Source: Deltaproteobacteria bacterium
GTDB taxonomy: Bacteria; Myxococcota_A; Polyangia; HGW-17; SLPX01
NCBI GenBank assembly: GCA_021162935.1
Contig: JAGGXR010000058.1
Coordinates: 1 to 64,000 of the forward strand
Length of the DNA: 64,000 nucleotides
Direction: 5' to 3'
Below are positions 223 to 55,903 of this stretch, in pieces. A program made the position numbers and the translations under genes. Under the pieces are notes generated by a model. It was not told the DNA's origin. It ran no database searches and saw only the letters and a program-made list of their open reading frames with translations. Every line of letters starts with the position of its first letter. Within the stretch, counting starts at the first letter, position 1.

Positions 223-1677
223 CTACCGATGGGGTTTCAAGCGACGGATGGGGTGCCGCAGGTGGCTTGCTCCTTTGAGCCGATGGATCCTGGACTTGGA
301 TATCCGGCGGATGTTCCGTTTTCTCAAGGCATTCGGGAAGACCCGACGTCGGCTATGCAGGTCGTCTATCTTGTACGTTTTTTTGACCTGGTCCACCATG
401 GCCTTCACCGTGGACTCGTCTTTGAGACTGACGCCCAGAGGGAGCACGGAACTGAGGAGATAGCTCCCGGTGACATGGCCTGCAGCGGCCTTGCGTAGGG
501 ACTTGAGCATGTTCAGCACGGCCCGCCGCAGGGACTGAGCCCGGCGTTCGTAGCGGCGATGCGTCGGGCCTTTGGCTGTCTTGGCTCGGTCTTCGTATCG
601 TTTCCATGTCCCCAGCATCCCAGCGATTCTCGTCTTGAGAAACGTGACCTGACTCAAGTCCTGGAAGTGGAGGTCGTTGCCCACGATGTGGAGTTCGGCC
701 ACCCCGATGTACTTGCCGCCGGGTGGCGTGCCGATGATGTATCCGTGATCCGCTTTTTGAGGCCGAAACAGCCATCCGCCGCGCCCCGACACGACTGACA
801 GCGCAATCTCGGGCACCTTGTTCATGATGTTCCTCGCTCGACCCACGTCCATGGCCGCGAGCAGGATGAACAGGGTCGCCCCCTTTGCTTTGAGGTCCGC
901 CACGGCTTTGGGTACCGTTTCGTCGGGATTCGCCAGTTTCACGTTGGCCGAGGGTTTGAGTTTTTCGCTTCGGGAGAGCCAAGTAGCACCCACCAGGCCT
1001 ATCGTGACCCCGTCGATGGTCACCAGACTTCCGGCTGGAAACACGCGTTTGCCGTGCCGATTCAAAATGTTCGAGGAGATCACCGGAGCATGGGTTTGGG
1101 CCACGAGTTTGCGGATGAGGCGCAGCCCCAACATCAGGTCTTGGGGGCCCAGATTGAGCGCGTGGGCCTGTTCATTGACCAGAAAACGCAGCACCAGGTC
1201 GGCCCGTGCCTTCCGGCGCGCGAGTTCGGCTGCATCGGGTTTCTGACTCCAGCCCTTCTTGCGGACGAGAGCATTGCCTGAATCCAGGACGAGCACGGAC
1301 GAAAACTTCTTTTTTTGTTCTGCGGTGAAGGTGGCTCGCCGGGCAAGACCGCCCAGCCGGTGAGACGCTCACCCACAGGGTTCGATCTCACCTCGAATGC
1401 CTCCCGAGAACACGATGGCAAGCACTTTGCCCGTGCCGCTGGGCCTGGGAGGCTTGATGGAATCGACGATGATGCGAACTTCGGCCGAGGTCTTGGGTCC
1501 AGGAATCCGTGGCGTTTGGCCCGGTCTTCCCTTCAGAGCCTTGCCCGCGTTTGGCTTATTCTTTTTTTGCGCTTTCGAGTTCTTCGAAGACGCAGCCTTC
1601 CCGTCGGAATGCTTACCGCATCCCCATAGAAGCAGGCTGGGGATGATCAGGGCTGCGACCAGAGTCCTTTTCTTCAT
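223..1677 (-). CDS. Metallophosphatase-like lipoprotein, predicted selenoprotein (Sec at codon 103)
   Basis: ATG 1677 follows AAGGAG and starts a lipoprotein signal peptide (LLLWGC, Cys20). The frame meets TGA at 1371-1369 (codon 103) and stays open in the same frame to TAG 225-223, giving 484 residues if UGA is read as selenocysteine. Around it reads GEIEPCG-U-ASHRLGGLARR; as I recall this family, CGC followed by GGLxRR is usual, so UGA replaces a Cys. A SECIS-like hairpin lies 18 nt after the UGA. The downstream part resembles the 5'-nucleotidase metallophosphatase fold (VLVLDSGNA, PVISSNI), but the usual DxH and GHxH metal ligands are absent (SGGIRG, SGRGG), so a redox rather than phosphatase role is possible. 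The last ~45 residues are Arg-rich and may mark a frameshift; another frame there is Pro-rich. Without Sec decoding this would be a broken gene. Confidence 0.75.
1338..1371 (-). promoter_or_regulatory. UGA codon plus SECIS-like hairpin
   Basis: On the reverse strand UGA (1371-1369) is followed by 18 nt and then the loop GGUCUU (1350-1345). The stem is 7 bp: 1357-1351 with 1344-1338, namely GGC-U-GGGC paired with GCCC-G-GCC read antiparallel, with one G-U pair. The bacterial SECIS consensus asks for a stem-loop with G in the first two loop bases, 16-37 nt after UGA. The loop core GGUCU is the one known from E. coli fdhF. The hairpin lies inside the coding frame, as bacterial elements do. Confidence 0.7.
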
Positions 1678-14012: not shown

Positions 14013-15563
14013 TCAGTAGGCCTGCTTGATGGTGCGGGGCTCGCCGCCATCCGGTCCTTCGCCCTGGGCGATGCGGAACCAGGTCACGCCGTCGGAGGAA
14101 AACTCCAAGGCATACTCGTATGAACTCCAGACCATATGGCGCATTTCCTCTCGGGGCAGGTCCCACTTGAACCGATAGTTGTTTCCCTGCTTGCTGTCGA
14201 AGGTGATCCAGGCCTGATGCTGTCCCTGACCGGAGCCTATGGAATAGACCACCCGTGCGGCCAGCATTTCGGGCCGGACCTGATTCGAATCCGTCACGCC
14301 CGGCACGTACACATCCGCGAAGACCGACATGCAGGCGCGTTCCATCATGTAACTCGTAATGGAGACCGGTTCGTCAAGGCCTTCGTTCCACTGACAGTCT
14401 CGGATCAGACTGTGACCCCAGTTTCCCGCCCAGGTCACCTCGGGGAGGCGATGGGGCAACACGCCGAACGAGTAGTTTTCGCCATAGTTGCTGTCCCACG
14501 TCTCGCAGCCCTGATCGTTCCAGGATCGAAACCAGACCTGCACGGACGTGGCGTCGCCCGGCACATGGAAGCGAACGGACGCCATTTTCAGGATGTGGCC
14601 GGCGGAATCCCGCTGGGCAACATGAATCTGTTGGGTCGCCACCTGGCCGCCGGGCAGGAAGCGCACGTTCGCCTCCAGCCCCCACCAGGAATCGTGCAGA
14701 GGCACCACGCAGTCGTTGATGCGCGCCAGGTTTTCATGAATCTCCAACAAGCCGCCGGCCACCACCGGAGCGTGTTGCATTTGGCGATAGCCAGGCTGAA
14801 ATTCGATCACTGAAAGGGGAGCAGGCCGGTCGTCGCAGACGTTTGGATCGTCCTTGATGCTCCACCAGTTCGCCTCGTCTAGATGGTCGTTTTCGAAATC
14901 ACCGGCCAGTCGGTTGTGGTCGAAGATCCTGCCACCGTCAGGCATGAGCAGGGCGGGGATCACGTCCATCTCGAAGTGGCTCAAGCCGGTCATACTCGTC
15001 GACGCTGGGCTAATGGTGTTCTCGTAGAAACGGATTCGGAAGCGCCGATACGCACCATGTCCTGCATCGGTTTCCTCCACGGCTTCGGTACTCTGCCACC
15101 AGGTGGCCCCGAGGCCATACAGCATCGCCGGAACAGCGCCCTGATCCACCAGGTCCGCCGCCACGTCCACCTCAGCCGTCCAGACCCACCAGGGCCGGTC
15201 ACCCACCACTTGAGTCTCGAAACCGCCCCAGCCAGGCAGACGCGTCACGCTCCGCAGGATGATCCGGCAATCGTGATCCGCCGCATCCTGGCCCGAACCG
15301 TCCGCCTTGAGGGCAGGAGCCGTCGTCGCCACCGCTCCCACGCGTGACCCGTCATCATGGCCAGAACCGCAGCCGGGCCAAAACAGCGCCGTTGCCGACA
15401 CGAATGCCAGACTCATCATCACCACGGCGAATCCGAGGATTCGATCGATGAGACCGGGCTTTCTGGCCAGTTTGGTGTTGGCATTTGGACCCTTCGTCCT
15501 CTTCTGCCTTTGATTTCCTGCGTGGGTTCCAAAGGAAAAAATGCGAAGATGTTCTCTCGGCAT
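14013..15563 (-). CDS. Large hypothetical lipoprotein
   Basis: The start ATG 15563 has TAGGAGA at a good spacing. The 516-residue product has a basic N-terminus, a hydrophobic helix (about 42-60), a likely lipobox WPGC (Cys65), then a tryptophan-rich, beta-rich body with no motif I recognise (WWVWTAEVDVAAD, MLYGLGATWW). It looks like an extracellular carbohydrate-binding or structural surface protein, but that is only composition. It ends 16 nt from the convergent TrmB gene. A candidate promoter with an overlapping dyad lies 170-210 nt upstream. Confidence 0.75.
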   Translation of the reverse strand: MPREHLRIFSFGTHAGNQRQKRTKGPNANTKLARKPGLIDRILGFAVVMMSLAFVSATALFWPGCGSGHDDGSRVGAVATTAPALKADGSGQDAADHDCRIILRSVTRLPGWGGFETQVVGDRPWWVWTAEVDVAADLVDQGAVPAMLYGLGATWWQSTEAVEETDAGHGAYRRFRIRFYENTISPASTSMTGLSHFEMDVIPALLMPDGGRIFDHNRLAGDFENDHLDEANWWSIKDDPNVCDDRPAPLSVIEFQPGYRQMQHAPVVAGGLLEIHENLARINDCVVPLHDSWWGLEANVRFLPGGQVATQQIHVAQRDSAGHILKMASVRFHVPGDATSVQVWFRSWNDQGCETWDSNYGENYSFGVLPHRLPEVTWAGNWGHSLIRDCQWNEGLDEPVSITSYMMERACMSVFADVYVPGVTDSNQVRPEMLAARVVYSIGSGQGQHQAWITFDSKQGNNYRFKWDLPREEMRHMVWSSYEYALEFSSDGVTWFRIAQGEGPDGGEPRTIKQAY

Positions 15564-15970
15564 GACTGGTCTCCTATCAGGAGGGACCGAACTCGGTCGG
15601 TCCATTCGGTTGGATGTGCTTGCTCGGATGCATCCTTGTGTTCGCTGCACTCGATCGATTCGTGCCGGCGTTCGTTTCAGCTTCCGCACGGCCACTTGGG
15701 TGGCCGCTTGGCTCACATGGCGTCGTTTGACGTAACTCTGTTCGGAGTTACTAATAACGAAGACGCCACTTGTCAAGGGCATTTTCAGAACCAATCCAGC
15801 CGGCTTCGAGCGAACGGCCCTTCCGACGCTCCACGGCCAATTCAGTCCCCAGCGGTTTGGACGAAATCGGCCCGATTCAGGCACACAGAGGCCTTGCCTG
15901 GCTTAGGTTCGAAGGGAACAGATTGATTGTTAGGCCAATCGTCAGATCGATCGTTCGATGGATCAACGGA
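15564..15970. other. Intergenic region with promoter and operator-like dyad
   Basis: About 400 nt without a convincing gene between two reverse genes. It carries a TTGACA box and a perfect inverted repeat for the downstream lipoprotein gene (see 15732-15776). I saw no terminator with a T-run for the gene ending at 15971. Confidence 0.5.
15732..15776 (-). promoter_or_regulatory. Candidate promoter overlapped by a perfect dyad
   Basis: On the reverse strand TTGACA (15776-15771) is followed after 17 nt by TAGTAA (15753-15748). A 7-bp perfect inverted repeat, GTAACTC-N6-GAGTTAC (15732-15751), covers the -10 region and the expected transcription start. This is the placement expected of a repressor site. 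It would serve the lipoprotein gene at 15563 with a leader of about 180 nt. Confidence 0.45.
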
Positions 15971-18661
15971 TCAGTAGAGTTGGTGGCGCAGGTCCAATAG
16001 GACCTGGATGCCGATGGTGAGGTTCGAGGCGATGTTTACGGGGGCGTTCTTCGTGTCGTACAGATAGAACTCGTGGTTGATGGTCACCGACAGGTGATCC
16101 ACGAGTGAGACGCTCAGCTTATTCGTCCACAGGAGTTCCTTTGCCTGGAGGCTGGCAATCTGGACGAAGGAGAAATCGAGCCTGGATTCCAGGTAGATGC
16201 GGGACTTCAGTATTTTCGTGATGGCGCAGCGATCCAGGGTGAAGCCAGCGTAGAGTCCCTGTTCGAGCATGCGTTCGCCACGGATCAAGATGTTGTGGGA
16301 TCGATTCATGTACCCGATTTTGAAAAAGAGTTTTGGGCGAAGCATGAACCCGGGGCCGATGCTGCCCGAGGTTTCGGTGTACCGATAGGTCCGTCCGTCG
16401 TCGCCCACGAGATTCGGCGTGATCTCCGTCTGGATGTAGCCTTCCGTGTAGGGAATCGGAAAATACCATTTTTTCGGGTCGTAGCGCCCGTGCCACCGCT
16501 TGAATTTGTAGAGGAGGTTCAGATTCACGAGGTCGTTGGTTTCCGCCTTGGCCACGGTTGTCAGTCCGGTGAGTTCATCGGTTATCCAGGTTTTGGACTT
16601 GCCGTACTTGACGCTGAAGGTCGCGGCGATTTCGTGCATGTCGTTGACCGCCTTGCCCGTGACGGAGGCATCCAACAGAATGCCGAGCATGCGCTGGCGG
16701 TTGAGCTGGGGCTGGTCCTGATAGAGGCCGGGATGCAAAATGGAGACGCCGGTCAGGGAGAAGTCGGCGGAAGTGACCAGGGACAGAATGAAGTTCTTGT
16801 GGAAGGAGACGAAGTTGCGATCCAGGTCGATGATGGGCTGTCCCTTGGGGTGGCGGTATCGGTCCAGGTCGAAGAAGGAGATCGCCGCGTTTCGGACCGT
16901 CTGTTTTTGCGTGGGGCGTTGGACCCACTTGGGCAAAGGAACGAGCCCTTCGCCTCCGGTTGCAACGAAGTCCGTGGTGGCCACTCGGTAGTGCTGGGCG
17001 TCTTCGATGACTCGTCCGTTGACGTAGAACAGCTTGCCTTTCTTGCTGAGACCTTCGACCCAGAGGCGGGGCCAGGTCCGACCGAGGTACTTCTTCAGAT
17101 GCGTCTTGATCCAGGAGCCCTTGACCAGGGCGACGACGACCCGATCCTTGAATCGAATGGCGCGTTCGATGCGCTCACGAGTCATGCGTCCGGACAGGGG
17201 AAACCCTGCATCCGCAAAGAGGCTGTCTTGCAGTATGGCGAGTTCGGCATGCACCGATCGGGTCAGGATGCGCAGCATGTAGCGGATGAATTCGGATCGA
17301 CTCTGTGGGCGGCGTATGACCCCGTGGCCCAGGGGCACGTCGATGCGCTGGCAGAGATCGGACATGATCGCGGTGATTTGCCGCGCCACCTTCTGGTCGG
17401 AGTGATACCGAGTCGTGGGTATGAGGTCCACGTGGACCGATGGCCTTGCGCCATGGCGCTGGGGCAGGGTGATGACCGCATGCCCGAGGGATTGACCGAA
17501 TCGGCCCGATGAGGCGATGGCCGTGCCGTCCGAGCGGTTGATCACGGCGATGAACTGCTGGCTCCGCAGACCGTACATGCCGTTTGCAATGGTCAGGTCG
17601 GGCGCATCGCTTCGCAAGGCGCGCACCAAGGCCAGGGTCTTTCTTGGAGCCGTGGAAATGTCGTCCAAATCGCTGACGAGCACCACGATCGTCGCCCCTC
17701 GATGTCGTGCTCGCCGAATGGTCTTGGCAACCCACTGATTCACTGTGTGACTGGAAAGGCCGATGGCGCGCTGTTTTCCAAGATACGCTGCGAGGTTCCC
17801 AGGGAGCACCGACAGGATGGCCACCTTGACGAGGCCACGACGGACCATGACGAATCCTTGGGATCGATCCGACAGGCTCTTGCAGCGCACGTCCTTGGTG
17901 TTCGAGCAGGTCAGGTTACCGGCCAACAACGGCAGGTGGCTGCTGGATGCAAGGCTCGCAAGTCTCGTGAGCGCCTGGCCCGCGGACAGATCGAACATGC
18001 CCAGGGCGAGTGCGTCGTAGCGCGTGCGCGACAGGAGCGAAACGATGGAGCCGAGCCAATGGGTTTCGCCCACGAATTCGCCCAAGACGTCGGGTCCCAA
18101 AACGCTCCCCGAGGAAATGACGATGGGGGATGGATCTCCGGCCTGGACGACCCGACGCCGCAGGGCATCCACGGCGGCCATGATGTTCCCGAAATGGGCG
18201 TGACGCCGGTCTCGATTGGCGCAGCCAGGCCAGTGATATCGCCCCATGAGGTCCGTATGGAACAGAATGTGGATTCGAATCCCATGGGCACGGGTGCTCT
18301 GCAGAGAGCCCTGGCTCGCCGTTTGCCCTGCAACCGCGCCATGAATCGTGGGCGATGTGGTCGATGGGGAACGAGTTTGGCGCGTGACCGCAGCCTTGGA
18401 CCTGACGTTGGACCTGGGTTGTTGTGCCGACTTGGACCTGACGTTGGGCCTGGGTTGTTGTGCCGACTTGGAATTGGCGCGCGCCTTGAACCGCGTTCGG
18501 TTCGTGGCAGCGGCGTTCGTCTTGTCATGAGTTTGAGCCCGAGCCCGAGCAACCCGGGACGGACCGGCCACGAGACTGCACAAGAGCACGACGGAACCGG
18601 ACAGGAGCCTCCAGCATGGCAGAGCAGGGGAGAGATGACTTCGTCGCCGTCCGTGTTGCAT
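15971..18661 (-). CDS. 5'-nucleotidase-like protein with C-terminal beta-barrel-like region
   Basis: With ATG 18661 the product has 896 residues: a basic n-region, a hydrophobic signal core (LLSGSVVLLCSLVAG), a Gln/Ser/Lys/Arg-rich linker with a 36-bp tandem duplication, a UshA-type metallophosphatase domain and the 5'-nucleotidase C domain (TTDFVATGGEGL). The usual metal motifs are degenerate (HTDLMG for DxHG, ANGMYG for GHxH), so catalysis is doubtful. A WPGC motif stands where the selenoprotein at 223-1677 has CGU. The last ~250 residues have alternating aromatic strands ending in Tyr, like an outer-membrane barrel. ATG 18766 is a possible earlier start with GGAA upstream. Confidence 0.78.
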   Translation of the reverse strand: MQHGRRRSHLSPALPCWRLLSGSVVLLCSLVAGPSRVARARAQTHDKTNAAATNRTRFKARANSKSAQQPRPNVRSKSAQQPRSNVRSKAAVTRQTRSPSTTSPTIHGAVAGQTASQGSLQSTRAHGIRIHILFHTDLMGRYHWPGCANRDRRHAHFGNIMAAVDALRRRVVQAGDPSPIVISSGSVLGPDVLGEFVGETHWLGSIVSLLSRTRYDALALGMFDLSAGQALTRLASLASSSHLPLLAGNLTCSNTKDVRCKSLSDRSQGFVMVRRGLVKVAILSVLPGNLAAYLGKQRAIGLSSHTVNQWVAKTIRRARHRGATIVVLVSDLDDISTAPRKTLALVRALRSDAPDLTIANGMYGLRSQQFIAVINRSDGTAIASSGRFGQSLGHAVITLPQRHGARPSVHVDLIPTTRYHSDQKVARQITAIMSDLCQRIDVPLGHGVIRRPQSRSEFIRYMLRILTRSVHAELAILQDSLFADAGFPLSGRMTRERIERAIRFKDRVVVALVKGSWIKTHLKKYLGRTWPRLWVEGLSKKGKLFYVNGRVIEDAQHYRVATTDFVATGGEGLVPLPKWVQRPTQKQTVRNAAISFFDLDRYRHPKGQPIIDLDRNFVSFHKNFILSLVTSADFSLTGVSILHPGLYQDQPQLNRQRMLGILLDASVTGKAVNDMHEIAATFSVKYGKSKTWITDELTGLTTVAKAETNDLVNLNLLYKFKRWHGRYDPKKWYFPIPYTEGYIQTEITPNLVGDDGRTYRYTETSGSIGPGFMLRPKLFFKIGYMNRSHNILIRGERMLEQGLYAGFTLDRCAITKILKSRIYLESRLDFSFVQIASLQAKELLWTNKLSVSLVDHLSVTINHEFYLYDTKNAPVNIASNLTIGIQVLLDLRHQLY
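18396..18467. repeat. 36-bp tandem duplication
   Basis: Two copies of a 36-bp unit (18396-18431 and 18432-18467) differ at one base. In the reverse gene they encode a repeated 12-residue unit containing SAQQPR and NVRSK in the linker after the signal peptide. The unit is a multiple of three, so copy change alters only linker length. Confidence 0.8.
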
Positions 18662-18792: not shown

Positions 18793-20625
18793 CTAGTGGT
18801 TGAGGCGATTTGGCCTGGTCACCACCGTACCGGCGAGTCGTTCCAGGTTGCGGGCCTGCAGAGGCGCACACCAGGTACCCAGGATGCGTTCGAGGTGTTT
18901 GGGTTCCTCGCCGTGGTTTTCGTCGATGGCCTTCCTTGTGACCTCCAGGGCATAGCGCAGAACCGGACGCCTGCGCCTGAGGGCGGCGAGTTCCTTTTTG
19001 GCCAAAGCCAGGTCCTGGTCGGACAGCGGGGTCGGCGACAGCGGCTGTCCAAGCAGGCTGTCGAGCAAGGCGGTCCGGAACAGGTCCCCCAGGGTGACGG
19101 CACCCGGCTCGGCGGGGATGCAGCCCTCGAGTCCTCCGGGCATCAGAATTTCCAATGGGAACTCCAACGTCGTGAAGCACAGGGGCCACTGATCGGCGAT
19201 GTCGCCGATGAGCGAAACGACGTGCGCCACGTCCGCGAGGGTTTTGATGGCCCTCGTCCCGTCTCCGGGCGGATTATCGAAGGCTCTGACCATGGCGGGA
19301 CGGCGTCTGGTCAGGGCAACGGACAGTTCGTCCCAAGGTGGGTCGAGCAGGGTTGCGCCCGAAGGGGCCAGGGAGATGCGCCCCACCCTGGTGAGTTGCA
19401 GGATGAGCCTCTTGAGATCCAGGGTCAGGCTGAATCCGACCCGGAAGATCCGCAACACGGAGACCGAGGCGAGAACCATGGGCCCCTTTTCTGGAGTCCG
19501 GCCGGTCAGATGCTCCAGCCCGAGGCTCAGGTAGCGCCTCATTCGATTCATGTACGCAGTCGCCTGATGAAAATCCGGCCCATCGACGAGGTCTGCGGCC
19601 ATCATCTTGTTGGCGAGGGCGGCCGCTGCATGACTGATACGGCTCATTTCCTCCGGGGCCTGAACCTCGGCGAGGCACCGAGCGAGGAAATCTTCTTCTT
19701 CGATTTCTGCTCGCACCAGAGCCTCCTGGCTGCTCGGCAGACCTGGTTCGGGCGGCGCATCGGCTGTGCCCTCTCCAATGGTCACCTGGGTGGGCTTGAG
19801 ATAGGTGTAGACCTCCAACGCTTCATAGTAGTCCGAGAAGCCCAGGTCCTGGAGTCGTCCGCTGCGCCAACGGTAGGCGAGTTCCTCCATTTCGGTGACA
19901 ATCTCCCAACGCGCCGCCTTGACGAATCTGTGGGCAAACTCCAGGTCGCTGCGATAGAGACGATCCAGAAAGCGACAGATCCGATTGTATTCGGCCACCG
20001 ACTCTGCATCCTTTGGAATGATCGCATAGAAGGTGTCCGGCGTATTCCATGGGCCGGCCGGAAAATCTTCGTCTGGAAGGACTTCGGCGGTTAGGTCCAC
20101 GATGCGGCAGGAACGGACGATGGCCACGACGATCAACTCGGGATCCATGCCCATCAGGTCTCGGATCAGGGGCCAGTCGTCGAGTTGCATGAGCACGTCG
20201 AACCAGTCCAGCACTCTGATGGCTGTGACCTGATCCTTGGTCCAGACGTCCAGGTCCAAGAACGCCTGGATCTGTTCGGGCGAAGCAGCGGCCACAAGTT
20301 CTGTGGCGTCTGCGAGACCCAATTCTTGAATCGCGTAAAACGCGTCCTGGACGGGGAGGGCAGGAAAAGCCTCGTCCAATTCCTCGAATTCGAAAATATC
20401 CGTGGGACGCCCCTCCATACAAACCTTGTGGATGTGGTCCTGGAATCGGGTCGCCAGTTCCGAAAGAGCCAGGTCTTCGGACGACTGTTCGTGGTCGCGA
20501 TGTCGTTCTACGACAGTCGGTTCCTTGGCTGCACTGGTTCCGTTCTCGGTTCTCTGCTTCTGGGCATGTGCGGCCGAGGTGCGGGGACGTCCATTCGGCC
20601 CGCTCTGCTTGTGCTTCGTCGACAT
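18793..20625 (-). CDS. DUF6178 family protein
   Basis: ATG 20625 has AAGGAG at a spacing of 10. The 610-residue protein starts with a charged, low-complexity N-terminus (about 1-60), then a long, largely helical body with motifs I associate with DUF6178 of Deltaproteobacteria/Myxococcota (LPVQDAFYAIQELGLAD, LDWFDVLMQLDDWPL). No signal peptide or membrane segment is seen; the protein is acidic and probably cytoplasmic. Its role is unknown. It lies 125 nt downstream of the DUF4350 gene and 132 nt upstream of the nucleotidase-like gene on the same strand. Confidence 0.82.
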   Translation of the reverse strand: MSTKHKQSGPNGRPRTSAAHAQKQRTENGTSAAKEPTVVERHRDHEQSSEDLALSELATRFQDHIHKVCMEGRPTDIFEFEELDEAFPALPVQDAFYAIQELGLADATELVAAASPEQIQAFLDLDVWTKDQVTAIRVLDWFDVLMQLDDWPLIRDLMGMDPELIVVAIVRSCRIVDLTAEVLPDEDFPAGPWNTPDTFYAIIPKDAESVAEYNRICRFLDRLYRSDLEFAHRFVKAARWEIVTEMEELAYRWRSGRLQDLGFSDYYEALEVYTYLKPTQVTIGEGTADAPPEPGLPSSQEALVRAEIEEEDFLARCLAEVQAPEEMSRISHAAAALANKMMAADLVDGPDFHQATAYMNRMRRYLSLGLEHLTGRTPEKGPMVLASVSVLRIFRVGFSLTLDLKRLILQLTRVGRISLAPSGATLLDPPWDELSVALTRRRPAMVRAFDNPPGDGTRAIKTLADVAHVVSLIGDIADQWPLCFTTLEFPLEILMPGGLEGCIPAEPGAVTLGDLFRTALLDSLLGQPLSPTPLSDQDLALAKKELAALRRRRPVLRYALEVTRKAIDENHGEEPKHLERILGTWCAPLQARNLERLAGTVVTRPNRLNH

Positions 20626-20749
20626 GGGCTTCAGACTCCTTGGATGTACGATGCATCGATGACGGTACAGGCCCGTTTTGGTGACCATGTTTGGTGACCA
20701 TGCGTCAGATTGCTCAAAGGGCAATCCTGTCTCACGACTCCCTGGAAAG

Positions 20750-26966: not shown

Positions 26967-27011
26967 TCGCAGGAACAACTCGCTTCGAACGACCGTGGCG
27001 GAGGAAGAAAG

Positions 27012-27377
27012 ATGGCCAGAGTAAAGAGAGGCACCAAGGCACGGCGCCGCCGAAACAAGATTCTGAAAGAAGCCCGCGGCTTTGTTGGTGGACGATCGAA
27101 GATCTACCGCCGCGCCGTCGAGGCCGTTCAGCGATCCTGGGTGTATGCATATCGAGACCGGAAGGTCCGAAAGCGTGATTTTCGGCGGCTCTGGATCACC
27201 CGAATCAATGCAGCGGCTCATCAACATGGCATGACTTACAGCACGTTCATGTATGGTCTCAAGCAGGCAGGAGTGGAACTCGACCGCAAAATGCTCGCCG
27301 AGATGGCAGCCCGGGACCCAAATGGATTTGCACATATCGCCGAAGTGGCCAAAGGCAATGCGGCCAAGGCTGAATAG
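27012..27377 (+). CDS. rplT: 50S ribosomal protein L20
   Basis: The 121-residue basic protein begins [18 protein letters not shown] and contains [23 protein letters not shown], typical of L20, an early assembly protein that binds 23S rRNA and often represses its own operon. In many proteobacteria pheST follows rplT; here ihfA follows directly. Confidence 0.97.
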
Positions 27378-27398
27378 GCACGGAGCCAGGCAGAATCG

Positions 27399-27686
27399 AT
27401 GACCAAGGCAGACCTCATAAACAGGGTCTATGGTGCCTTCGAAGGCATTTCCCGCAAGGAAGCGGCAGAACTCGTCGAAACCGTGTTCGATGCCATCAAA
27501 GAGACCCTGGAGCGAGGGGAAAAGGTCAAAATATCCGGATTCGGCAATTTCGTGGTACGTCGAAAGCGCGAACGCCCGGGACGGAATCCCCAGACCGGTC
27601 AGGAAATCACGATCACCGCTCGTCGCGTCTTGACGTTCAAGCCGAGTCAAATGCTCAAGACGGGGTTGAATGCCGCGGACGACTAA
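27399..27686 (+). CDS. ihfA: Integration host factor, alpha-type subunit
   Basis: The 95-residue protein starts [11 protein letters not shown] and has the DNA-bending beta-arm [17 protein letters not shown] with the conserved Pro, and [11 protein letters not shown]. It belongs to the HU/IHF nucleoid family, alpha-like by its place before merR and by MTKADL. It starts 21 nt after rplT. Its 3' end overlaps the merR gene by 17 nt. Confidence 0.93.
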
Positions 27687-52240: not shown

Positions 52241-53395
52241 TCAGTTTTTCAACTGGATCCAGTGGTACTCTTTTTCCAAAGATTCCTGTGTCTTACCGTG
52301 TTCGATCACGTCTCGAACCGTCTCGGGGCGAATGTCTCTGCCGCCGAGCCCCGCAATGTAGCACTGAATGGGCGGCACGTCGGGGATATGCGCCGTGGCG
52401 GCTCGCAATTCCTGCGCCCACACGCCACCCAAGCCAGGGCTCATGTTCTTGTCGATGACCAGGACGCGTTTGCGGCCCGCCAGTTCCTTGCGCACGCGCT
52501 CCACTGGGAAGGGACGCAGGGTGCGCATTTTCAGAATCCCGACCTTTTCCCCTCTCTCGCGATACTGGTTCACCATGTATTTGGTCGTGGACGTCGTGGT
52601 GCCGGAGGTGACCAGCACGATATCCGCATCGTCCAGCTTGTACCCCTCGACCTGCCCGTACTTGCGACCGAAGCGTTCGGCCCATTCTTCGAGCACGGAA
52701 TCGATGACGCCGCCTGCCCGCTCCATGGCCTCTTGGAGTTTGTACCGCATCTCGTAATAGTATTCGGGCATCACCAGAGACCCGAATGCGTACGGCTTGC
52801 CGGGATCGAGCTTCAACTCGGCCTGCCTGGGCGGCAGGAAGTCGTCGATGGGGCCCTGGTCCGTGATGTCCACGACCTCGGACGTGTGACTGAGCAGGAA
52901 AGCGTCGTAGACCACCATTATCGGCAGGTCCAACTGCTCCGCAATCTTGTAGGAACAGACGGTCAGATCGAACACTTCCTGGTTCGACTCGCAGTACATC
53001 TGCATCCAGCCCGTGTCACGTTGCGCGAGCGAATCGAGCTGATCCGCCCAGATGCTCCAACCTGGCGCCATGGCTCTGTTCACATCGGTCATGACGATCG
53101 GGAGTCTGGCCCCCGAGGCCCAATGAAGCAGTTCGTGCATCAATGCAAGGCCCTGGGCAGAGGTGGCCGTAAAGGTCCTCGCTCCGGCCTGAGCTGCTCC
53201 AATGCAGCATGCCATAGCCGAGTGTTCCGACTCCACCTTGATGAACGTGGCGTCGAGATCACCGTCGGCACACATTTCCGACAACTCCTCGACGATTTGC
53301 GTCTGGGGAGTGATCGGATAGGCGGCAATCACCTGAGCACGGGATCGTAGGACCCCCCAGGAGACCGCATGATTTCCCATCATCACCTTTTTCAC
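52241..53395 (-). CDS. porA: 2-oxoacid:ferredoxin oxidoreductase, alpha subunit
   Basis: The 384-residue protein has the pyrimidine-binding YPITPQTQIVEEL, ESEHSAMACCIGA and TSAQGLALMHE of PorA, and the C-terminal transketolase-like domain. GTG 53395 has GAGG upstream. Substrate could be pyruvate, but 2-oxoisovalerate or phenylglyoxylate enzymes look similar. Confidence 0.93.
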   Translation of the reverse strand: MKKVMMGNHAVSWGVLRSRAQVIAAYPITPQTQIVEELSEMCADGDLDATFIKVESEHSAMACCIGAAQAGARTFTATSAQGLALMHELLHWASGARLPIVMTDVNRAMAPGWSIWADQLDSLAQRDTGWMQMYCESNQEVFDLTVCSYKIAEQLDLPIMVVYDAFLLSHTSEVVDITDQGPIDDFLPPRQAELKLDPGKPYAFGSLVMPEYYYEMRYKLQEAMERAGGVIDSVLEEWAERFGRKYGQVEGYKLDDADIVLVTSGTTTSTTKYMVNQYRERGEKVGILKMRTLRPFPVERVRKELAGRKRVLVIDKNMSPGLGGVWAQELRAATAHIPDVPPIQCYIAGLGGRDIRPETVRDVIEHGKTQESLEKEYHWIQLKN

Positions 53396-53452
53396 AGCTC
53401 ACACCTCATATCGATGGCGAATCGTCCGACTTCATCCGGCGACACGCTGGTT

Positions 53453-55276
53453 CTACTCACGTACCATTTCCATGGCATTGCGTGGACATTCATGCACGCA
53501 CACGCCGCAGCCCTTGCAGTGGTAATCGTCAATGGCGTATCCGAATTCGTCAGTCTTGGGCATCACTGACGCATCGGGGCAGAAAATGTAGCAGTTGTCG
53601 CATTCGATGCAGCGCCCGCAGTGGAAACATCGATCAGCCGCTTTCGCCGCCTGCTCCTCGGTCAGACCGAGTTCCACTTCCTTGAAGCGATTGGGGGCGC
53701 TTGCAGGCATCGTCTGCATTCGCTCCGTCAAACCGACCACGGCCTTGCGAACACGCTCGGACTGTTCGAAGTAGTCCATATTGAGTGTCTCGTATTCGCA
53801 GATTTCGTTCACCACCGGAACCTTTTCTTCAATCTTTTTGTGCTCGCGGTAGGCCAAATACTGCCTCATGGACAGGGCAGGACCAGTCGCTAGAGTGATG
53901 TTCGCGAGTGCCTCTTCGAACGAACCGCCTCGAAGGCTGCAGTCGATGCCGATGGCGGCCCGCTTGCCGGCGGCCAGTGCGTTCACGATCGTATGCGGCT
54001 GTTCCACAACGTCGCCGCCGGCGAAATACCGCTCGTTCGAGGTTTTGAGGGAGTCGTCCACCACGATGGCCCCGTTTTCCACCTTGAGACCGTCGGGCAG
54101 GAAACTAAAATCAGCCAGTTCACCCACGGCGGTCACCACGGTGTCACAAGGCACGGTGAAGTTCGACCCTTCAATTACAATGGGGCGCCGTCGCCCTGAC
54201 TCGTCGGGCTGCCCCAGCTTTACCTTGACGCATTCGAGTGCCCGTACCCGGTTGTTTTCGGTGACGACCTTGGACGGTGCCGCCAGCATCTGGAACACCA
54301 CGCCTTCCGCCTCGGCCGCCGTAACCTCATCGTCGTGGGCCGGCATCTCTTCCCTGCTGCGACGGTAGAGGATCGTCACCTTGGCATCCAAACGCATGGC
54401 CGTGCGGGCGGCATCGATGGCCGTGTTGCCGCCGCCAATGACCAGGACCCGCTCCCCCAACTCGACATCCTCTCCCGAGGCGACCTTCTTGAGGAGGTTC
54501 AATCCGCTCATGACACCCTGGGCATCCTCACCAGAAATTCCCAGAGCCCGGCTCACGTGGACGCCCGTTCCCAGGAACACGCGGTCGAACCGTTCCATGT
54601 CCTTCCAGGTCACGTCCGTCCCCACGCGGACCCCGCATTGGATCTCGACGCCCATCTTCTTGAGTACGTCGATTTCCTCGGCGAGCATGTCGCGTGGAAG
54701 ACGATAATCCGGAATTCCATAACGAAGCACACCGCCCGGTTCCTTGGCCGCCTCGTAGATGGTCACCGCATGCCCCATGCGGCGAAGGTGATAGGCACAG
54801 GCCAACCCGGCCGGTCCGGAACCCACCACTGCGACCGACTTGGCGGTCGCCGCCGCCACCTTCGGCACCTTCCGTGTGCCGTGGTCGGACAGGAATCGTT
54901 CCAAATTATTGATGGATACCGATCTGTCGAACTGCGCACGGTTGCAACTCTTCTCACAAGGATGGAAGCAAGCCCGGCCGCAGACGCCCGGAATTGGGCT
55001 CTCTTCCATGTTCTTTTCGAGAGCCTCGTCGTAGCGCCCCTCGGAAATGAGACGAATCCAGGCCTCGACGTCTTGACCGTTGGGACAGCCGACCACGCAG
55101 GGCGAGACCAAATTTCGATACCTGGGCTTCATGTAGCGCCAGGTCCCTGTCTCGTTCCAGGTCATGTGCCCAGTCGAAATCACGATGTCGGGCAGATCAC
55201 TGATTCCCGAAAAGCTCAACTTCTCGTGTGCATTTCGGTTGGGATCCATGTTTTTGAGTTTTTCCTTTTCGGACAT
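53453..55276 (-). CDS. GltD-like NAD(P)/FAD oxidoreductase fused to a 2x[4Fe-4S] ferredoxin domain
   Basis: The 607-residue protein starts with an Fer4-type N-domain (SPCVVGCPNGQDVEAW, GVCGRACFHPCEKSC), then an FAD-binding Rossmann fold (VAVVGSGPAGLACAYHL), an NAD(P)H-binding fold (VLVIGGGNTAIDAARTA), and a C-terminal ferredoxin part (CFHCGRCIECDNCYIFCP and CKGCGVCVHECP). In the operon it replaces the usual PorD ferredoxin subunit and adds a pyridine-nucleotide module. This recalls the phenylglyoxylate:NAD oxidoreductase layout (PadH plus PadF), and suggests the complex links 2-oxoacid oxidation to NAD(P)H. Confidence 0.9.
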   Translation of the reverse strand: MSEKEKLKNMDPNRNAHEKLSFSGISDLPDIVISTGHMTWNETGTWRYMKPRYRNLVSPCVVGCPNGQDVEAWIRLISEGRYDEALEKNMEESPIPGVCGRACFHPCEKSCNRAQFDRSVSINNLERFLSDHGTRKVPKVAAATAKSVAVVGSGPAGLACAYHLRRMGHAVTIYEAAKEPGGVLRYGIPDYRLPRDMLAEEIDVLKKMGVEIQCGVRVGTDVTWKDMERFDRVFLGTGVHVSRALGISGEDAQGVMSGLNLLKKVASGEDVELGERVLVIGGGNTAIDAARTAMRLDAKVTILYRRSREEMPAHDDEVTAAEAEGVVFQMLAAPSKVVTENNRVRALECVKVKLGQPDESGRRRPIVIEGSNFTVPCDTVVTAVGELADFSFLPDGLKVENGAIVVDDSLKTSNERYFAGGDVVEQPHTIVNALAAGKRAAIGIDCSLRGGSFEEALANITLATGPALSMRQYLAYREHKKIEEKVPVVNEICEYETLNMDYFEQSERVRKAVVGLTERMQTMPASAPNRFKEVELGLTEEQAAKAADRCFHCGRCIECDNCYIFCPDASVMPKTDEFGYAIDDYHCKGCGVCVHECPRNAMEMVRE

Positions 55277-55348
55277 CGCAGGCTCCGTTTTTCACGTCAG
55301 CATCAGCCGGAACGGACAAAAAGACCAAAATCGTACCGGCAGCGGTTT

Positions 55349-55903
55349 TCAGTATCCCAAAATAACAGACTCGAACGCTTCTTTGGCCGATTCGGCATTG
55401 GCCTCCGGCTTGATCGGCACCTGGTCTCCAATACAGGAAATGATCGCGTCGATGGACACGATGCCCGAAGCCTTGGCAAAAGCGCCCAAGATCGTCGTGT
55501 TGACGATGGGATAGGACGGCGAACCCAGGCGGTGCTTGGCAGCGATGCTTCCAGCGTCCACCGTGGCCACCCGAAAGTCGTCGAGGCCCTTGAAGAAATC
55601 GGGGGTATTTTCAGAATTGATGAGCACGATGCCGCCCTTCTTCAACCCATCGGTGCAGATGCCAGTTGCGAGCAGATTCGGGTCCAGGACCATGATATGG
55701 TCCGGCTCATAAATGTTGTTCCGAATCAGGATGGGAGCTGCGTCGATTCGCGTAAACGCCGCCACTGGAGCGCCGCGCCGTTCGACCCCAAATGCGGGAA
55801 ACGACTGGACATACTGTCCCTCACTGAACACGGCGGATGCCAGAATCTTGGAAGCGATGACAGCACCCTGTCCTCCGCGCCCGTGGATTCGAATCTCTAT
55901 CAT
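55349..55903 (-). CDS. porG: 2-oxoacid:ferredoxin oxidoreductase, gamma subunit
   Basis: The 184-residue subunit begins IRIHGRGGQGAVIASKILA and has FGVERRGAPVAAFTRI, both typical of the gamma domain that contacts CoA. AGGAGG precedes ATG 55903. It is the first enzyme gene after the regulator. Confidence 0.94.
   Translation of the reverse strand: MIEIRIHGRGGQGAVIASKILASAVFSEGQYVQSFPAFGVERRGAPVAAFTRIDAAPILIRNNIYEPDHIMVLDPNLLATGICTDGLKKGGIVLINSENTPDFFKGLDDFRVATVDAGSIAAKHRLGSPSYPIVNTTILGAFAKASGIVSIDAIISCIGDQVPIKPEANAESAKEAFESVILGY

Follow-up and report, generated by a model that had tools for sequence, protein, structure and literature searches.

A barrel-bearing, degenerate UshA-type protein whose conserved cysteine shares an alignment column with the selenocysteine of an UshA-like selenoprotein

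In UshA, a large hinge rotation of the C domain on a linker of about 20 residues brings substrate to the metal site (excerpt of PMC8071527), and His117 is the catalytic histidine (excerpt of PMC7922932). UshA-like selenoproteins with a CxU motif (COG0737) have been in print since 2008, and the selenoprotein family is already known on that basis (excerpt of PMC2398784); such proteins are also listed in two reviews (excerpts of PMC13188914 and PMC9312934), the first of which was the sole literature match to the two NCBIfam accessions. The window, by which we mean the whole stretch of 64,000 nucleotides analyzed here, encodes one such selenoprotein and a larger UshA-type protein that has a cysteine at the position of the Sec and ends in a predicted β-barrel. 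The family of this second protein (the barrel family) has no dedicated Pfam or NCBIfam match, and no description of a nucleotidase–barrel pseudoenzyme stands among the literature matches listed. The original prediction took it to be the Cys counterpart of the selenoprotein, with a redox or metal-binding role for the Cys or Sec residue. We instead favor, as probable, a reading in which the protein is an exported pseudo-nucleotidase on its own barrel and its aligned cysteine, Cys147, forms a permanent structural disulfide with Cys437, rather than standing in for Sec.

Architecture and metal site of the barrel protein

The gene and its parts are as follows.

15971..18661, minus strand: gene of the Cys protein, 896 aa, ATG start at 18661 (open reading frame and translation)
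18536..18661, minus strand: putative signal peptide, aa 1-42 (RRR, hydrophobic stretch, ARARA), read by eye from the translation
18284..18535, minus strand: low-complexity basic linker, aa 43-126, with a repeated SKSAQQPR-NVR unit (translation)
17396..18283, minus strand: degenerate metallophosphatase-like domain, aa 127-422, part of the UshA/CD73/SoxB fold match (model residues 9-503); metal site lost
18221..18223, minus strand: Cys147, in GRYHWPGC, aligned with Sec103; present in 78/78 members covering the four Cys sites
17906..17908, minus strand: Cys252, in 76/78; missing along with Cys260 in L009 and L167
17882..17884, minus strand: Cys260, in 76/78; missing along with Cys252 in L009 and L167
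17342..17395, minus strand: interdomain helix, aa 423-440 (AlphaFold2 helix 309-326 of the model)
17351..17353, minus strand: Cys437, proposed partner of Cys147; in 78/78 members covering the four sites
16943..17269, minus strand: 5_nucleotid_C domain (PF02872, 29.5 bits, cut-off 23.6)
15974..16831, minus strand: predicted C-terminal β-barrel of about 12 strands (domain folded alone; Foldseek)

Matches to this gene were found in 10 of the 13 order genomes, counting that of the window, and in the class-wide search, and we therefore reject a chance open reading frame. In that search, 98 of 289 genomes had matches at E <= 1e-6, a count that takes in ordinary nucleotidases; a search of the phylum, in which selenoproteins and others are likewise counted, gave 57 of 377 at E <= 1e-12. 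Seven named loci were checked, five of them labeled phylum Myxococcota and two class Deltaproteobacteria. The 5_nucleotid_C domain is the only Pfam match of the window protein above cut-off, and among the 12 members of alignment A1 that were scanned it was matched by 10 at E <= 0.01, with no other Pfam family reaching that threshold. Against NCBIfam, the window protein lies under every cut-off; judged by E value, members of A1 match eight models of the UshA superfamily (best 6.8e-17). A sequence search of solved structures gave a best E of 0.028.

AlphaFold2, run on aa 115-896 with nine sequences, produced a moderately good model (pLDDT 69.7 for the top one of five and 49.8-56.8 for the rest; pTM 0.48). 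Its head matches E. coli UshA, CD73, and SoxB, that is, the two-domain UshA fold. Cys147 is model residue 33, the first of helix 33-59, and Cys437 is residue 323 in the interdomain helix. Folded alone, the barrel gave pLDDT 76.7 and pTM 0.69 with about 12 long strands, and its top Foldseek matches were OmpG, FapF, EstA, and other outer-membrane barrels, at low TM-scores (0.23-0.51 by query length). Based on this barrel and the signal peptide, the protein is predicted to be exported. The basic linker varies in length among relatives; in the window protein it contains a 12-residue repeat in two nearly identical copies, SKSAQQPR-P/S-NVR (aa 64-75 and 77-88; window 18398-18472).

To describe the metal site we used eight positions, the dimetal ligands and the catalytic His, in E. 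coli UshA numbering. Where 11 ordinary nucleotidases most often have D,H,D,N,H,H,H,H, the residues are D,M,S,M,F,D,G,Y in the window Cys protein and G,R,N,P,Q,A,G,G in the window selenoprotein, which keeps none of the eight. The prediction that both proteins have lost their DxH and GHxH ligands is thus right about the loss of the site, intact metal sites being found at the eight positions in neither protein, but overstated in one detail, since the Cys protein retains the Asp of DxH (TDLMG). That Asp is present in 23 of the 62 barrel-family rows of a joint alignment, 40 of them have Asp at the His217 position, and none of the eight positions is conserved throughout. Because both metal sites are gone, phosphatase activity is unlikely, as had been proposed from the sequence. 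The NxGG[IVL]R motif of the C domain is also missing in all 80 barrel-family members covering it, a weak test that hardly discriminates because a looser form of the motif matched just two of six ordinary nucleotidases.

Upstream of the gene, 131 bases away and in the same direction, lies a DUF6178 gene (PF19676, 361 bits; window 18793-20724, minus strand), and 86 bases downstream a DUF6209 gene (14013-15884, minus strand); the three may be co-transcribed. We compared eight named and four other loci, several of them short, with the window's open reading frames of at least 100 aa. Beyond the gene itself, the matches were two small genes in L079 (window 26967-27374 and 27378-27683), and this limited comparison of 12 loci found no conserved neighbor backing a scaffold role. 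PHROGs gave no matches, and Rfam found four tRNAs in the window and one sub-threshold match overlapping a tRNA.

The Cys147/Sec103 column and the two families

The comparison protein lies near the start of the window.

223..1677, minus strand: selenoprotein, a lipoprotein of 484 aa, NF041198-like, with a CxU motif (C101, U103)

It reads GEIEPCG-TGA, the in-frame TGA (the Sec103 codon) occupying 1371-1369, and two further genomes of the order carry a TGA in frame at the equivalent position. The NF041198 profile (UshA_like_PCGU) scores it at 165.1 bits, under the cut-off of 275. The genome encodes selA (539 bits against a cut-off of 267.9, which 1 of 14 control genomes also exceeded) and tRNA-Sec (68.9 bits, gathering 47; over gathering in 5 of 14 controls), and a SECIS-like fold 3' of the TGA was not significant (z -0.99). 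At the threshold used, the NF041198 profile is not specific, matching 12 of 13 order genomes and 9 of 14 controls below its cut-off, and for this reason we counted only TGA-bearing matches, which are found in three of the 13 genomes, the window's included.

The proposed alignment of the Cys of GRYHWPGC with the Sec of GEIEPCGU is borne out. An hhalign comparison of A1 with A4 placed Cys147 and Sec103 in one column (97.9%, E 5.8e-13), as did larger profiles (99.7%, E 1e-25). The match could have been an artefact of cysteines attracting each other in alignment, which we reject because the register stayed unchanged (E 3.4e-25) when all rows were masked with X at C147 and at the C-x-U residues. 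In the joint alignment, the Cys147 column holds C in 62/62 barrel-family rows and in 0/11 ordinary nucleotidases; in its 25 selenoprotein-family rows, picked by the PCG[U/C] motif, C or U stands there by construction.

Those 25 rows are the loci that match [EDQN]PCG[UC] among 32 (the 30 best profile matches plus L016 and L017). The seven that do not match were left out of the tree and joint alignment and read later; all have C or U at the site, so that the 32 loci divide into 26 with U and six with C. The Cys two residues ahead is present in 31 of the 32; L109 reads EPSG-TGA, with Ser in its place. The three selenoproteins of the order contain only the lipobox Cys, the Cys, and the Sec, and their Cys/Sec pair therefore appears self-contained. 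A further Cys lies 165-172 residues past the motif in 11 of the 25 members. Six of the 25 (L086, L089, L091, L092, L096, and L097) have four CxxCH motifs after the UshA-like domain, a tail resembling a tetraheme cytochrome, which suggests, from motifs, that the PCGU Sec/Cys site is linked with electron transfer.

Several findings argue against calling the barrel protein a Cys counterpart of the selenoprotein. At the aligned site it has PxC and neither CxU nor CxC, thus lacking the second Cys of the pair; its architecture differs, and NF041198 gives it only 17.8 bits (E 0.001), far from the cut-off of 275. True Cys counterparts, with CxC, sit inside the selenoprotein family (the six loci with C). 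Phylogeny also separates the two: in a tree of 61 N domains that included UshA-type nucleotidases, 30 barrel-family rows and 25 PCGU-family rows (among the latter two of the six CxC proteins, L086 and L114) form separate clades, each with support of 100/99, and on this ground too the barrel protein is not a Cys version of the selenoprotein. A single role filled by one protein in some genomes and by the other elsewhere is doubtful: the barrel protein occurs in 10 of the 13 order genomes and the TGA-bearing selenoprotein in three, and the window's genome carries both genes. Two genomes of the order, G009 and G010, have the selenoprotein and no barrel-protein match at E <= 0.001, and across the few genomes of the order (13) there may be a trend to mutual exclusion.

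The membership of the barrel family was defined as follows. Of 41 matched open reading frames, seven were set aside: L154, L143, L149, L147, L144, L146, and a second frame, L142_p791. Of these, the first five retain the Asp at DxH, are 488-679 aa long, and lack all four Cys; they were reused among the 11 nucleotidases of the joint alignment. L146 is an unclear fragment, and L174 was likewise set aside. Setting aside rows without Cys is partly circular, with an independent reason in the scores, which were 71-142 bits (99 for L174) against at least 149 for kept rows. This left 87 rows, nine of which miss one or more of the four Cys sites and so are not among the 78 used below. For the tree, 4 of 34 barrel rows had no N domain and were omitted; the filter also demanded C at the column, and every row with a residue there passed (30/30). 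In one second barrel-family copy (G021:C697, L115) the N-terminal match lies in another open frame (53385-53687 vs 53705-55864), which may reflect a broken gene or an assembly error.

It is possible, although on balance unlikely, that the Cys at this site has a single origin, in an ancestor that the barrel and PCGU families share, and that the barrel family never had, or has lost, CxU chemistry. Both families have lost the metal site, and in the tree their clades fall together, apart from the six nucleotidases; the joint branch has support of just 53/24, however, and the root was itself placed on those nucleotidases. Such an origin is compatible with the other readings and leaves the present-day role undecided.

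The four conserved cysteines

Across the 78 members covering all four sites (147, 252, 260, and 437), 76 read CCCC, and the two exceptions, L009 of the same order (CV-C) and L167 from another class of the phylum (CAAC), lack exactly 252 and 260, which leaves 147 to pair with 437. No further Cys occurs past position 130 in 68 of the 78, and an even set is as expected for disulfides; the window protein has one additional Cys, Cys812, in the barrel. In an exported protein, this pattern points to two disulfides, 252–260 and 147–437, the pairing following by elimination from the two losses. Covariation is uninformative on the second pair because neither Cys varies in the 78. A distant partner Cys is also not unique to the barrel family, as the selenoprotein-family members with a further Cys demonstrate.

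Based on these patterns and the models, we propose that the gene product is a pseudo-5'-nucleotidase with its own C-terminal outer-membrane β-barrel, which has lost its dimetal site but, according to the model, retains the UshA-type two-domain fold. Without that site, no nucleotide hydrolysis is expected, and the protein would more likely act in binding or as a scaffold at the outer membrane. The first helix begins with Cys147, which in sequence is near the vacated metal site and would be bonded permanently to Cys437 at the end of the interdomain helix; Cys252–Cys260 would form a second, small disulfide, and the two together would stiffen the head. A bond between the first loop of the N domain and the interdomain helix, in a protein with no metal site to which substrate must be brought, is consistent with a scaffold that has been stiffened. 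Because preformed disulfides would hinder passage of the head through the barrel, its location is probably periplasmic. As part of this reading, the shared column of Cys147 and Sec103 would likewise probably mark a shared place in the fold and not a shared job. A functional thiol would, however, be expected to look the same, as a Cys that never varies next to what was once an active site.

Accordingly, a redox function deserves consideration, in which Cys147 is a reactive thiol in the vacated site, like Sec103, and Cys437 is its distant resolving or switch partner. The common column speaks for this, as do the invariance of Cys147 set against the variation at the metal-site positions and the CxxCH tails that suggest electron transfer in the PCGU family. 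Nevertheless, Cys147 has no neighboring Cys, no CxC or CxxC occurs there in any barrel-family row reading through the site, no redox domain was found among the 12 members scanned with Pfam, and a staple would account at least equally well for a partner located in a different secondary-structure element. In view of the four-Cys pattern, we consider this redox role distinctly unlikely. An extension of it is more speculative and less likely still: two dead UshA-type lineages would each have placed a chalcogen (Sec or Cys) beside the vacated metal site and used it chemically, the barrel family as an outer-membrane thiol switch in which the Cys147–Cys437 bond controls the interdomain hinge. A metal-binding role for Cys147, which would then join Cys437 or further residues in replacing the lost dimetal site, is very improbable, for although this Cys comes after the former DxH loop and the Asp frequent at the H217 position might still bind metal, none of the eight positions keeps one residue across the family and two members have just two of the four family cysteines.

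Comparison with known systems

Among the known systems close to the stapled pseudo-nucleotidase that we favor are the UshA/CD73 5'-nucleotidases, with which it has in common the two-domain fold (VIA Z ~24-25 to E. coli UshA, model residues 9-503) and the PF02872 match; it differs in having lost the dimetal ligands and catalytic His, save one Asp, and in its additional barrel. The fold is also common to the SoxB thiosulfohydrolase (Z ~23), from which the Cys protein is set apart by its lost metal site and the absence of TIGR04486 from its matches. EstA-type autotransporters consist of an enzyme head plus a barrel, and the Cys protein likewise has a head followed by a C-terminal barrel, with EstA among the barrel's Foldseek matches, which all have low TM-scores. 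Unlike them, neither the window protein nor the 12 A1 members have an autotransporter Pfam match, and, given its invariant disulfides, the head would be less likely to be exported through the barrel.

With the NF041198 family of UshA-like (seleno)proteins, the Cys protein shares a degenerate UshA-type N domain, a lost metal site, and the C/U column. That family is distinguished by its CxU/CxC pair, by the four CxxCH motifs of some members, and by its separate clade; its representative in the window is, moreover, much shorter and has no 5_nucleotid_C match. The tempting Cys/Sec pair thus splits in two, into a known selenoprotein family with real Cys counterparts of its own and a family of barrel-borne pseudo-nucleotidases. 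The latter, probably stapled by disulfides, offers a testable case of an enzyme fold retained as a rigid non-enzyme.
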